Shown here piece after piece: positions 15,644-19,973 of a stretch of DNA of 57,269 bases; the stretch's first letter is position 1; each line of letters begins with the position of its first letter. The translations under genes were made by a program, and so were the position numbers. This DNA is from Gemmatimonadota bacterium (GTDB taxonomy: Bacteria; Gemmatimonadota; Gemmatimonadetes; Gemmatimonadales; GWC2-71-9): contig QHUY01000063.1 of the NCBI GenBank assembly GCA_003223415.1, positions 1 through 57,269 on the forward strand. Reading direction: 5' to 3'. Under the pieces are notes generated by a model. That model was not told where the DNA came from, did no database searches, and saw nothing but the letters and a program-made list of their open reading frames with translations.

Positions 15644-16839
15644 ACACCACCCTTCTCCTCGCCTTCAATTTTCCGCCGCACGGCGGCGGCATCGCCCGGA
15701 TGATGGGCGAGCTGGCGCGCCGCTACCCGCCGCAGTCGCTCGTGGTCTCCACCGGCGCCGAGGCCACCAGCGTCGAGAGCGACGCCGGCTTCTCGCAACG
15801 GATCGACCGCACCGGCATCCGCGCGACCCGGCTCCGCACGATCAACGGGCTCGCCCTCTGGACGTGGCGTGCCAGCGCGCTGGCCCGGCGCTGGCATCCG
15901 GGATTCGCCTGGTGCGGAGAGCTGAAGCCGGCCGGCTATCCCGCCTGGTGGCTGACGCGCCGCTATGGCATCCCCTACGGCGTCGTGGTGCACGGGACGG
16001 AGCTGCTGCTGCTCGAGGCCAAGATCCGCCGCAGCCGCTTCAAGCGCTGGACCGCCGGCGCGCTCGTGAGCAACGCCGCCGTGCTCGTGGCCAACAGCTC
16101 CTGGACCGCGGGCCTCGCGCGCTCGGTGTACGGGCTGTTGGGCCGTCCCGATCTCGCTGCCCGCGTGGAGGTCGTGCCCCTCGGCACCGAGCCGACGCGC
16201 TTCCGGCCCGGCATCGACGCGACGGCGGTCCGGCAGAAGTACGGGCTGGGGGTGGGGACGGGTCCCTGGCTCCTCACTGTGGCGCGGCTCGAGTGGCACA
16301 AGGGGATCGACATGACCATTCTCGCGCTCCCGGCCGTCCGCGCCGCCGTGCCGGCGGCGCGATACGCGGTCGCGGGCCTGGGGCCGCGGCGCCCGCAGCT
16401 GGAGGCGCTCATCGCCGAGCTCGGCCTCGGGGACGCGGTGCGGTTGCTCGGCCCGGTGTCGGACCGGGACTTGCCGGCGCTGTACAACGCGGCCGACCTG
16501 TACGTCGGCGCCTCGCGTCGCCACGACCTGTTGGTCGAGGGATTCGGGATTTCGCTCGTCGAGGCGTCGGCATCGGGGCTCGCGGTGGTGGCCGGCCGCT
16601 CGGGCGGAGTACCCGACGCGGTGCGCGACGGTGAGACGGGGATTCTCGTAGACTCGACGGCGCCCGAGCCGGTCGCGGCGGGGATCATCGATCTGCTGCG
16701 GAGCGTCGAGCGGCGGCAGGCGATGGGGGCGGCGGGGCGCCGCGCGGTCGAGACGTACTACAACTGGGATCGCGTCGCGCGGGACTTCATCCGGATCGAC
16801 GCAGCGTTTCGGCGACCGCCGCCGCGGGCCGCGCACTGA
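15640..16839 (+). CDS. Glycosyltransferase family 4, tandem paralogue with probable CTG start
   Basis: A GT4 of 399 residues if translation starts at CTG 15640. The first ATG in frame is at 15700 and would remove the first beta strand. Residues NTTLLLAFNFPPHGGGIAR upstream of that ATG align with TKTFLLTDEFPPMQTGIAR of the preceding paralogue, so the frame is under selection back to 15640, where CTG overlaps the previous stop as CTGA. Other motifs: VVVHGTELLL, VEVVPLGTEPTRFRPG, LTVARLEWHKGIDM and VEGFGISLVEASASGLAVVAG. Its 3' end overlaps the convergent patatin gene by 53 bp. Confidence 0.9.
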   Translation: MNTTLLLAFNFPPHGGGIARMMGELARRYPPQSLVVSTGAEATSVESDAGFSQRIDRTGIRATRLRTINGLALWTWRASALARRWHPGFAWCGELKPAGYPAWWLTRRYGIPYGVVVHGTELLLLEAKIRRSRFKRWTAGALVSNAAVLVANSSWTAGLARSVYGLLGRPDLAARVEVVPLGTEPTRFRPGIDATAVRQKYGLGVGTGPWLLTVARLEWHKGIDMTILALPAVRAAVPAARYAVAGLGPRRPQLEALIAELGLGDAVRLLGPVSDRDLPALYNAADLYVGASRRHDLLVEGFGISLVEASASGLAVVAGRSGGVPDAVRDGETGILVDSTAPEPVAAGIIDLLRSVERRQAMGAAGRRAVETYYNWDRVARDFIRIDAAFRRPPPRAAH

Positions 16840-17872
16840 TCGCATAGGTCGGGCAGTGGCGGATGAAGCCCCCGCCCGTCGGGGACCACTCCTGCTCCGG
16901 CGTCGTCACCACCGCTTTCCCCTCCGCGTCCAGCACGAACATGCCGGGGGGCGCCTGCACCAGGCATGCCCCGCACCCGATGCAGCGCTCCCGTTCCACG
17001 CGCACGATCACGCGGCGCTTCGGATAGACGCCCTCGTCGCCCGCCACAGGCCATTCGCCCGGCCGCTCGAGCGCCGCGCTGGTCGCCCGGTACCCCTCCT
17101 CCACCACTTCGCGCAGGTGATCGAACGAGAACATCGAGATGTGCTCCACGCGGGGGTGGATATAGTAGACGGGCGGCGTGGTCCAGGAACGCATCCGCAG
17201 CTCGAGCAACGACTGCATCGCGACCTCGGTGGCGCGCGCGAACACCGCCGCGAAGCCCTCCTCCTGGGTGTCGGCGCGCAGCGCGCTCGAGGCCGAGACG
17301 TCCACGGCGAGGATGCATTCGCCGCCCAGGGCGCGGGCGGCGCCCACCGGCAGGTTGTCCACCGTGGCGCCGTCCACGTAGAAGTGGCCGCGGATCTCCC
17401 GCGGCGGCAGGTAGCCCGGCAGGGCGCAGGAGGCGAACACCGCGTCCCCCACGCGCACTTCGTCGAGCCCGGTCAGGCCCCAGAACACCTGCATCCCCGA
17501 GTTGATGTCCACGGTGTTCACGACCACGGGCAGGTTGAGCTCCGTGAACGTGCGGTCGCCGATCAACCGCGCGATCAGGTGCTCGAGCGGCTCGCGACGG
17601 AACAGGGCGGGGGAGCGCATCCGCTTGAAGGCCATGTCGGCATGTGCCACGACGAACACGTCCTTGCGCCGCAGGCCGATCGCCATCTCCCGCAGCTCGG
17701 GAATGCTGTGGCCCGCGGCCCAAGCGGCCCCGATCAAGGAGCCGACACTCGAGCCGATAATGTGCGATGGGGCCAGGCCGCGCTCGATGAGCGCCTGCAG
17801 GACGCCCACGTGCGCCACCCCCTTCATCCCCCCGCCGCCCAGAATCAGTGTGAACGGTGTGCCGGGTCTCAC
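16787..17872 (-). CDS. Patatin-like phospholipase fused to a single-cluster ferredoxin domain
   Basis: A 361-residue fusion. The N-terminal two-thirds is a bacterial patatin: oxyanion loop GGGGMKGVAHVG, nucleophile serine in GSSVGSLIG (~40-48), and the catalytic aspartate motif YVDGATVDNLPV, which lacks the usual DGG but keeps DG. The C-terminal ~70 residues form a monocluster ferredoxin: ERCIGCGACLVQAPPGMFVL with CxxCxxC, and a distant HCPTYAIS cysteine. Patatins hydrolyse acyl esters; the ferredoxin module would carry or sense electrons. GTG 17872 (VRPGTPFTLILGGGG) starts right at the fold. This domain combination is unusual. Confidence 0.88.
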   Translation of the reverse strand: MRPGTPFTLILGGGGMKGVAHVGVLQALIERGLAPSHIIGSSVGSLIGAAWAAGHSIPELREMAIGLRRKDVFVVAHADMAFKRMRSPALFRREPLEHLIARLIGDRTFTELNLPVVVNTVDINSGMQVFWGLTGLDEVRVGDAVFASCALPGYLPPREIRGHFYVDGATVDNLPVGAARALGGECILAVDVSASSALRADTQEEGFAAVFARATEVAMQSLLELRMRSWTTPPVYYIHPRVEHISMFSFDHLREVVEEGYRATSAALERPGEWPVAGDEGVYPKRRVIVRVERERCIGCGACLVQAPPGMFVLDAEGKAVVTTPEQEWSPTGGGFIRHCPTYAISARPAAAVAETLRRSG

Positions 17873-17928: not shown

Positions 17929-18789
17929 ATGCACGCGCCACTCGTCTGGTACCGCCTCGCCCGCGACCGCTGGGCCCTGGCCGGTCTTGCGATCGTCGTC
18001 CTGATGGTGCTCGCCGCGCTGCTCGCGCCCTGGCTCGCGCCCGCCGACCCCGTGCGCGGCGCGCTCGCCCGGAGCCTCGAGCCGCCCTCCCCAGCGTTCC
18101 TGCTCGGCACGGACGCCCAGGGCCGCGACGTGCTGTCGCGAGTGCTGTATGGGGCACGGCTCTCGCTCGCGGTCGGCCTGATCAGCCAGAGCATCGCCTG
18201 CGTGCTCGGGCTCGCACTCGGCCTCGTGGCCGGATATTACGGCCGCTGGATCGACGCCGCCGTGATGCGTGTCGCGGACGTCACCCTCGCCTTCCCGTCG
18301 CTCCTCCTCCTGATCGCCATCGCCGCCGCCGTGAAGCCCTCCCTACCGCTCGTCTTCGTGGTGATCGGCGTCGTCGGGTGGGCCGGCATGGCCCGCATCG
18401 TGCGCGGCCAGGTCCTGGTCGTGCGAGCCCTGGAGTACGTGCAGGCGGCGCGCGCCCTCGGTGCGTCGGACACCCGCATCGTGACGCGCCATCTGCTGCC
18501 CAACGTGATCGCGCCCGTGGTGGTCGCGACGACGCTCGGCATCGGTGGCGCCATCATGGCGGAGGCGGCCTTGTCGTTCGTGGGGTTGGGGGCCCAGCCG
18601 CCCACCCCCTCGTGGGGCGCGATGGTGTCCGAGGGACGTGATCTGCTGCGCGTGGCGCCGTGGGTATCGCTTTACCCCGGGCTCGCGATCGGCTGCGCGG
18701 TCCTGGGCCTCAACCTGCTGGGCGATGGGCTGCGCGACGCCCTCGATGTGCGCCTCCGGGGAGCGGGGGGTGGGGGGGCGGCGCTGTGA
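17929..18789 (+). CDS. ABC transporter permease, DppC/OppC type
   Basis: A 286-residue inner-membrane permease of the dipeptide/oligopeptide importer family. It shows the family N-terminus (RDRWALAGLAIVVLMVLAAL), LLGTDAQGRDVLSRVLYGARLSL, and the ATPase-docking EAA loop VQAARALGASDTRIVTRHLLPNVIAP, followed by AEAALSFVGLGAQPPTPSWG. About six membrane helices are visible. The partner DppB permease, ATPases and binding protein are absent from this window, so it is an orphan here. Its TGA overlaps the next gene as GTGA. Confidence 0.92.
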   Translation: MHAPLVWYRLARDRWALAGLAIVVLMVLAALLAPWLAPADPVRGALARSLEPPSPAFLLGTDAQGRDVLSRVLYGARLSLAVGLISQSIACVLGLALGLVAGYYGRWIDAAVMRVADVTLAFPSLLLLIAIAAAVKPSLPLVFVVIGVVGWAGMARIVRGQVLVVRALEYVQAARALGASDTRIVTRHLLPNVIAPVVVATTLGIGGAIMAEAALSFVGLGAQPPTPSWGAMVSEGRDLLRVAPWVSLYPGLAIGCAVLGLNLLGDGLRDALDVRLRGAGGGGAAL

Positions 18790-19973
18790 CCGAGATCGTT
18801 TCCCACCCCACGCGCGTGCGCGCGCTGCGCGAGAGCACCAAGGCGCTCCGGGACGCCGAGTTTCCCTGGACCGCCGATACCGTCTACTTGAACAACGCCT
18901 CGATCGGCCCGATCCCGGAGCGCACGCGCCGCGTCGTCGACGCGTTCACGGCCAAGCGCACCGCGCCGCACCTCCTCCCCGACCGCGACTTGCAGGCCGG
19001 GCTCGCGGCGGCGCGCGACGCCGCCGCCCGGCTGATCAACGCCGATACGGGCGAGATCGCGCTCGCCACCAACACCAGCTGGGGGCTGAACCTCGCGGCC
19101 CGCGCCCTCCCGGTGCTGCCGGGGGAGAAGATCGTCGTCTCCGACCGCGAGTTCCCAGCGAACGTGTATCCCTGGCTGCTCCTCAAGAAGGATGGCATCG
19201 AGGTCGAGCTCGCCCCGTGCCGCGCCGAAGGCTGGCCCGACGAGGACGCGCTGCTGGAGCGGTTGCGCGACCCCCGCGTCCGCGTGCTCGCCGTCTCGTT
19301 CGTCCAGTTCTCCAACGGCTACCGCGCCGACCTGAAGCGCCTCGGGGCGGCCTGTCGCGCCAACGGCACCTATCTGGTGGTGGACGGCATCCAGGGCGTG
19401 GGGAACATGGAGCTGGATGTGCGCGAAACCCCCGTCGACGTCCTCGCCTGCGGCGGCCAGAAGTGGCTGCTCTCGCCCTGGGGATCGGGGTTTGTGTACG
19501 TGCGCAAGGAGCTCGTGCCACGACTCGAGCCGACGGTGACCGGATGGATGGCCTTCGAAGGCACGGACGACTTTTCGCGGCTCACCGAATACAACCCCAA
19601 CTTCCGTGCCGACGCGCGCCGCTTCGAGCTGATCACCCTGCCGTTCCAGGACTTCTACGGGTTCACGTCTTCGGTGGACATGTTGCTCGAGATCGGGATC
19701 CGCGACATCGCCGAGTGCACGCGCGCGCTGCACGAGCCGGTGCTCAAGTGGGCCGACGCCCACGATGTGCGGGTCGTCTCGCCGCGGGACGACAAGCATC
19801 ATTCGGCGATCCTCTGCCTCGCGCCGGCCAAGGCCGTCGAGGCGTTCTACGCCGTGAAGCGGGCCCGCATCGTGTGTTCGCTGCGCGAGGGCGCCATTCG
19901 CCTCTCACCGCACTGCTACAACACGATGGAAGAGATGGAAAAGGTGATCGACGTACTGGAGGGGGTGGTCTAA
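18786..19973 (+). CDS. Class V aminotransferase (cysteine desulfurase / isopenicillin N epimerase-like)
   Basis: A 395-residue PLP enzyme. Landmarks: VYLNNASIGPIPERTRR near the N-terminus, LATNTSWGLNLAARAL (cofactor phosphate contact), VSFVQFSNGYRADLKRLG, VVDGIQGVGNMELDV with the PLP-nitrogen aspartate, and the Schiff-base lysine in ACGGQKWLLSPWGSGFVY (~222-239). It lacks the C-terminal cysteine loop of a standard NifS/IscS, so sulfur mobilisation is not assured. The substrate is unknown. The GTG start is coupled to the permease stop. It ends tail to tail with the next gene with a 4-bp overlap. Confidence 0.88.
   Translation: MTEIVSHPTRVRALRESTKALRDAEFPWTADTVYLNNASIGPIPERTRRVVDAFTAKRTAPHLLPDRDLQAGLAAARDAAARLINADTGEIALATNTSWGLNLAARALPVLPGEKIVVSDREFPANVYPWLLLKKDGIEVELAPCRAEGWPDEDALLERLRDPRVRVLAVSFVQFSNGYRADLKRLGAACRANGTYLVVDGIQGVGNMELDVRETPVDVLACGGQKWLLSPWGSGFVYVRKELVPRLEPTVTGWMAFEGTDDFSRLTEYNPNFRADARRFELITLPFQDFYGFTSSVDMLLEIGIRDIAECTRALHEPVLKWADAHDVRVVSPRDDKHHSAILCLAPAKAVEAFYAVKRARIVCSLREGAIRLSPHCYNTMEEMEKVIDVLEGVV

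Follow-up and report, generated by a model that had tools for sequence, protein, structure and literature searches.

The DNA examined here, referred to as the window, is a 57,269-nucleotide stretch from the genome of a soil bacterium of the Gemmatimonadota, and on its minus strand one uninterrupted frame at 16787-17872, opening with a GTG start at 17872 and closing with a stop at 16787-16789, encodes a protein of 361 aa. The initial annotation had placed the gene at exactly these positions and had described its product as a patatin phospholipase joined to a monocluster ferredoxin; both domains are indeed significant in this one protein (Patatin, E 7.4e-34; Fer4_15, E 8.1e-7). The features of the gene and of its two divergent neighbours are listed below, with conservation counts that refer to a main alignment of 75 distinct full-length proteins, pre-filtered at tblastn scores of at least 220 bits and a length of at least 320 aa, with no N and not cut.

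16787..17872, minus strand: whole gene of the patatin-ferredoxin fusion, 361 aa, GTG start
17336..17848, minus strand: Pfam Patatin match, residues 9-179; the patatin fold reaches about residue 276
17747..17749, minus strand: Ser42, nucleophile of GSSVG (GxSxG), invariant 75/75
17372..17374, minus strand: Asp167 of the DGA motif, invariant 75/75
17015..17047, minus strand: linker, residues 276-286, with conserved G281 (73/75), P284 (75/75) and R286 (66/75)
16823..17014, minus strand: single-cluster ferredoxin domain, residues 287-350
16982..16984, minus strand: Cys297, predicted cluster ligand 1, 75/75
16973..16975, minus strand: Cys300, predicted cluster ligand 2, 75/75; absent from 18/19 standalone ferredoxins
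16964..16966, minus strand: Cys303, predicted cluster ligand 3, 75/75
16853..16855, minus strand: Cys340 of CPT, predicted cluster ligand 4, 75/75
17929..18789, plus strand: divergent neighbour, OppC-type ABC permease (Pfam BPD_transp_1, OppC_N)
18786..19973, plus strand: divergent neighbour, a kynureninase-like class V PLP enzyme that probably starts at a GTG overlapping the stop of oppC

The two halves of the protein

The first half carries the hallmarks of patatin-like phospholipases. In a profile search, Pfam Patatin (PF01734) matches residues 9-179 with an E value of 7.4e-34, the glycine-rich oxyanion motif GGGGMKG occupies residues 12-18 ahead of the nucleophile, and the GxSxG and DG[GA] motifs of the group are present with S42 and D167. 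An oxyanion motif of the GGG-x-[KR]-G type is found in nearly all alignment rows that reach it (15 rows start later because they are cut, and one is partly cut). Patatins commonly carry their aspartate in one of two motif forms, DGG or, as the second common form, DGA. Among the 75 aligned proteins, DGA occurs in 46, comprising all rows outside the sister family f2, and DGG in 29, comprising 29/29 rows of f2; DGG is also found in 23/23 unfused patatins. It had been remarked at the outset that the sequence here is DGATVDN rather than DGG and that the catalytic dyad consequently needed checking. The motif was read correctly, with Asp167 as its aspartate, but the concern is dispelled, as DGA is an ordinary form and the Ser/Asp pair is invariant; this invariance and the motif tally also rule out a degenerate aspartate motif. 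As far as sequence can indicate, an intact dyad speaks for a functional hydrolase.

The second half corresponds to a single-cluster ferredoxin. Of the profiles concerned (PF13459 and PF13370), Fer4_15 matches residues 290-326 with an E value of 8.1e-7 and 30.1 bits, above its cut-off of 22.4, and Fer4_13 scores 20.6 bits, under its cut-off of 24.5. The CxxCxxC...C module proposed in the initial annotation is found as C297-x2-C300-x2-C303 followed by C340-P, the ligand set of single-cluster ferredoxins. Variation of the C-terminal cysteines among homologues, which would have counted against the initial annotation, was not seen: all four are invariant (75/75), with one relative lacking the tail altogether. 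Also invariant are Ser42, Asp167, P284 in the linker, P341 and A344, and the same residues are among the invariant columns of a second alignment of 33 members reaching down to 38% identity, in which Patatin is matched by 33/33 and Fer4_15 by 29/33 proteins at E<=0.001. The complete set of ligands argues for a [4Fe-4S] cluster, which the tail would be predicted to bind.

The fused tail is, by its sequence, distinct from the common local ferredoxin. Of 19 standalone ferredoxins, drawn from as many genomes of the class and including one from the window's own genome, 18 carry Phe or Asn where the fused tail always has its second cysteine. Three cysteines in this arrangement are usual for [3Fe-4S] ferredoxins, and the standalone proteins of the class are probably of the P450-associated type. 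The retention of the second cysteine in the fused tail, against its absence from nearly all of these standalone proteins, points to selection for the full four-cysteine site. The 19 standalone proteins also lack two features that are conserved in the fusion, a G-x-x-P-x-R linker and a WSPxDG tail motif. The standalone ferredoxin in the window's own genome (L172, G000:C238:50-600) has CVGFGDC replacing CxxCxxC and is probably of the [3Fe-4S] type. A further four-cysteine module, CTACGKC...CPTGA, was seen within a 133-aa open-frame stretch of a fusion-bearing genome (L169, G016:C33:114700-115200).

An AlphaFold2 model of the fusion, built on 28 aligned sequences, has a mean pLDDT of 88.5 and a pTM of 0.87, and its two halves were compared with solved structures by VIA-align. 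Residues 5-274 superimpose on PlpD with a Z score of 31.6 (2.5 A over 249 residues) and thus adopt the patatin fold in the model, which also matches the patatin 4pka (Z 25.1); residues 288-347 superimpose on the Thermotoga maritima ferredoxin 1vjw with a Z score of 9.2 (1.3 A over 56 residues, 43% identity). When solved structures were searched by sequence, PlpD likewise matched the first half, and residues 290-347 matched ferredoxin of the T. maritima type (1rof/1vjw). Among the 10 sequence matches and the fold matches listed, no solved protein convincingly contains both domains, each covering one half, and among viral predicted structures it is the patatin half that is matched, judging from names and aligned lengths. 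Residues of about 71-90 are, apart from 191-210, the least certain long part of the patatin domain (block means 72, 65 and 64, 78), a feature of the model that would fit a lid. The pTM for the whole chain suggests a definite two-domain arrangement.

These predicted features bear on two alternatives to a regulatory role for the tail. In the first, the ferredoxin domain would pass electrons to a partner, such as an oxidase or reductase that modifies lipids, while the patatin half would supply or position the acyl substrate or anchor the carrier at the membrane. The modelled tail has a true electron-transfer ferredoxin fold: the ferredoxins of Pyrococcus furiosus and T. maritima give Z scores of 9.2-9.3, and Mycobacterium tuberculosis Fdx and the ferredoxins of Rhodopseudomonas palustris, of which one carries a CYP-associated title, give 8.9-9.1. 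However, it differs at the second ligand from the class's standalone ferredoxins, which are probably of P450 type, and we consider the carrier role unlikely. In the second, the [4Fe-4S] site would do no more than stabilize a C-terminal substrate-binding or dimerization domain, without changing its redox state in the cell. The invariance of the ligands and the conservation of the linker fit this equally well, and so does the high pTM, but the tail has kept the whole ferredoxin fold, including the residues around the cluster, and one relative, described below, does without it; a purely structural cluster is thus given about the same low standing as the carrier.

Distribution and origin of the fusion

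Whole-genome searches covered the phyla Gemmatimonadota and Bacteroidota. A match was obtained in 245 of the 298 Gemmatimonadota genomes searched, and the fusion, taken as a match extending to residue 346 or beyond, is present in 127/172 genomes of the window's order (127/298 overall), being distributed over the window's family (46/65) and the order's other two families (81/107). One genome (G194) is counted among the 127 although its match, lying against a contig edge, begins only at residue 147. No fusion was found among the matches listed for the 126 Gemmatimonadota genomes outside the order, which end by residue 288, or among those for 247 Bacteroidota genomes, none of which extends beyond model position 302 of 354. 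An independent search of 119 genomes of the class, in which only the tail served as query, gave strong matches (E <= 1.3e-9) in 34/46 same-order genomes and weak matches only (E >= 1.7e-6) in 23 other genomes. When named genome contigs were searched with patterns of close relatives and the tails of 38 loci were read, fusions were seen in Gemmatimonadota records only, and no plasmid (96 records) or phage (5 records) match covered 80% of the query. The fusion could occur elsewhere, outside Gemmatimonadota and Bacteroidota. No report of a patatin-ferredoxin fusion was found among the titles and abstract beginnings listed by open-access full-text searches, and a term search of one article (PMC12871566) gave 0 occurrences of redox, iron and ferredoxin.

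The relatives on named contigs come almost entirely from metagenome-assembled genomes, according to their record titles, and such material could harbour a chance joining or an assembly or frame artefact. Against this, the frame is single and open, the ligands are invariant in 75/75 proteins, and the fusion recurs in 127/298 genomes, including the single-contig genomes G019, G038 and G073; an artefact is ruled out for practical purposes. The patatin-ferredoxin fusion is real, and it is a new architecture built from known domains.

A match to residue 346 is lacking in 45/172 same-order genomes, some of which are incomplete, with three cases due to contig ends or a broken frame. Four early stops were followed: G210 and G245 stop at contig ends, G132 has a broken frame with a recognizable tail, and G213 is tailless. 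The protein of the last (L138, G213:C80) is 55% identical over the patatin half, and its frame ends after the patatin with no ferredoxin in any frame, so that the tail is not strictly required there. This locus offers a natural control for the role of the tail.

A patatin-domain tree built with FastTree from 75 fused proteins and 23 unfused ones of the phylum, with an unfused protein as root, groups the fused patatins in a single clade (support 0.999), which suggests that, among the proteins sampled, the tail was acquired a single time. Unfused relatives end soon after the last patatin helix and have no cysteines in their tails. Fused and unfused patatins differ consistently at F73, M80, R84, P95, G135, V141, G153, N173 and F207, positions that include the lid-like stretch and residues close to the catalytic motifs, and the hydrolase half therefore appears to have changed in the same lineage as the one that acquired the tail. 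As a possible precursor, a ferredoxin beside an unfused patatin was sought in other orders by scanning 23 loci for CxxCxxC...CP; only L113 and L117 came up, with frames that were unconvincing by eye, and this candidate was rejected.

Gene neighbourhood and proposed role

The neighbours in the window, namely glycosyltransferases, the OppC permease and the kynureninase-like enzyme, give no pointer to redox sensing. The class V PLP enzyme lies divergently near the fusion in 56/79 non-redundant loci and is linked to it across the order. Its Pfam matches are to Aminotran_5 and, weakly, KYNU_C, and its C-terminal motif is of the SPHCYN type where the pattern was found (35/61 copies gave no match, many of them cut); together these suggest a kynureninase-like enzyme rather than a cysteine desulfurase. 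The version in f2 is only about 25-30% identical. In the f2 loci (L070-L098), the aconitase gene acnA lies after the fusion in the same orientation in 21/29, some loci being cut at a contig end; in 10 of those 21 it begins 15-222 bases after the fusion, by match start, and in two further f2 loci it has the opposite orientation. Some loci have a lipid-kinase-like gene, so named from its sequence, after the fusion. As a guide to function, the gene context in the window, the 79 non-redundant loci and the f2 loci reveals no clear pathway. Among the neighbour clusters profiled (part of the 34 listed), no ferredoxin reductase or P450 was recognized, which also speaks against the tail being an electron carrier.

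We favour a regulatory role, in which the protein would be a cytoplasmic acyl-hydrolase whose [4Fe-4S] domain acts as a switch responding to redox, oxygen or iron status, and assign it a probability of roughly 0.4, ahead of electron-carrier and purely structural roles. The permanent joining of a cluster domain to the hydrolase through a conserved linker would be best explained by regulation of hydrolysis by redox, oxygen or iron. The proposed mechanism begins with a patatin-family serine acyl-hydrolase, probably cytoplasmic and acting on lipid through the Ser42/Asp167 dyad, that would have gained its C-terminal ferredoxin domain once, in the ancestor of a Gemmatimonadota order. This domain would bind one [4Fe-4S] cluster and would be fixed against the hydrolase rather than dangling, such that oxidation or loss of the cluster may alter its packing on the hydrolase and, in turn, access to membrane lipids. 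Either redox control of hydrolysis or electron transfer coupled to it, as first suggested for this gene, is plausible, and the retention of the fusion across the order hints that it may be a lipid enzyme tuned by the redox or oxygen state of the cell. The more specific proposal of an iron-sulfur-gated lipase, whose built-in [4Fe-4S] cluster would respond to oxygen, redox or iron state and act directly as the switch for membrane-lipid hydrolysis, is more tentative still, though less doubtful than either alternative role.

Comparison with known patatins and ferredoxins

Known regulators of patatin lipases include partner proteins, ubiquitin, calcium-binding domains and cyclic nucleotides, and we know of no patatin with iron-sulfur-gated control. 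A built-in redox cofactor, if true, would be a new regulatory input that ties lipid turnover to oxygen or iron in a soil phylum of wide occurrence; should the cluster prove structural, an order-wide hydrolase architecture would still provide a defined, testable target.

The closest structural counterpart of the hydrolase half, the Pseudomonas patatin-like protein PlpD (PDB 5fya/5fqu), shares the patatin fold and the Ser-Asp dyad at 26% identity. PlpD is exported via its own beta-barrel (type Vd), whereas in the fusion protein there is no space for a barrel, and a ferredoxin domain is present instead. RssA-like patatins (NF007623) give the best NCBIfam match (residues 8-199, E 5.5e-26), but at 91.4 bits this lies well under the equivalog cut-off of 272 and stops before the ferredoxin half. 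The CBASS phospholipases CapV and CapE have the patatin fold in common with the model (Z 22.7-26.0), yet the profile of the cGAMP-activated phospholipase (CBASS_lipase, NF041079) scores 54 bits against a cut-off of 200, and matches to the PADLOC effector profile are limited to the patatin part. On the ferredoxin side, the proteins of T. maritima (1vjw), P. furiosus (D14C, 2z8q) and Desulfovibrio africanus (FdI, 1fxr) have the same fold and CxxCxxC...CP ligands; these are free proteins, whereas the fused domain comes with a conserved linker and a WSPxDG motif of its own.
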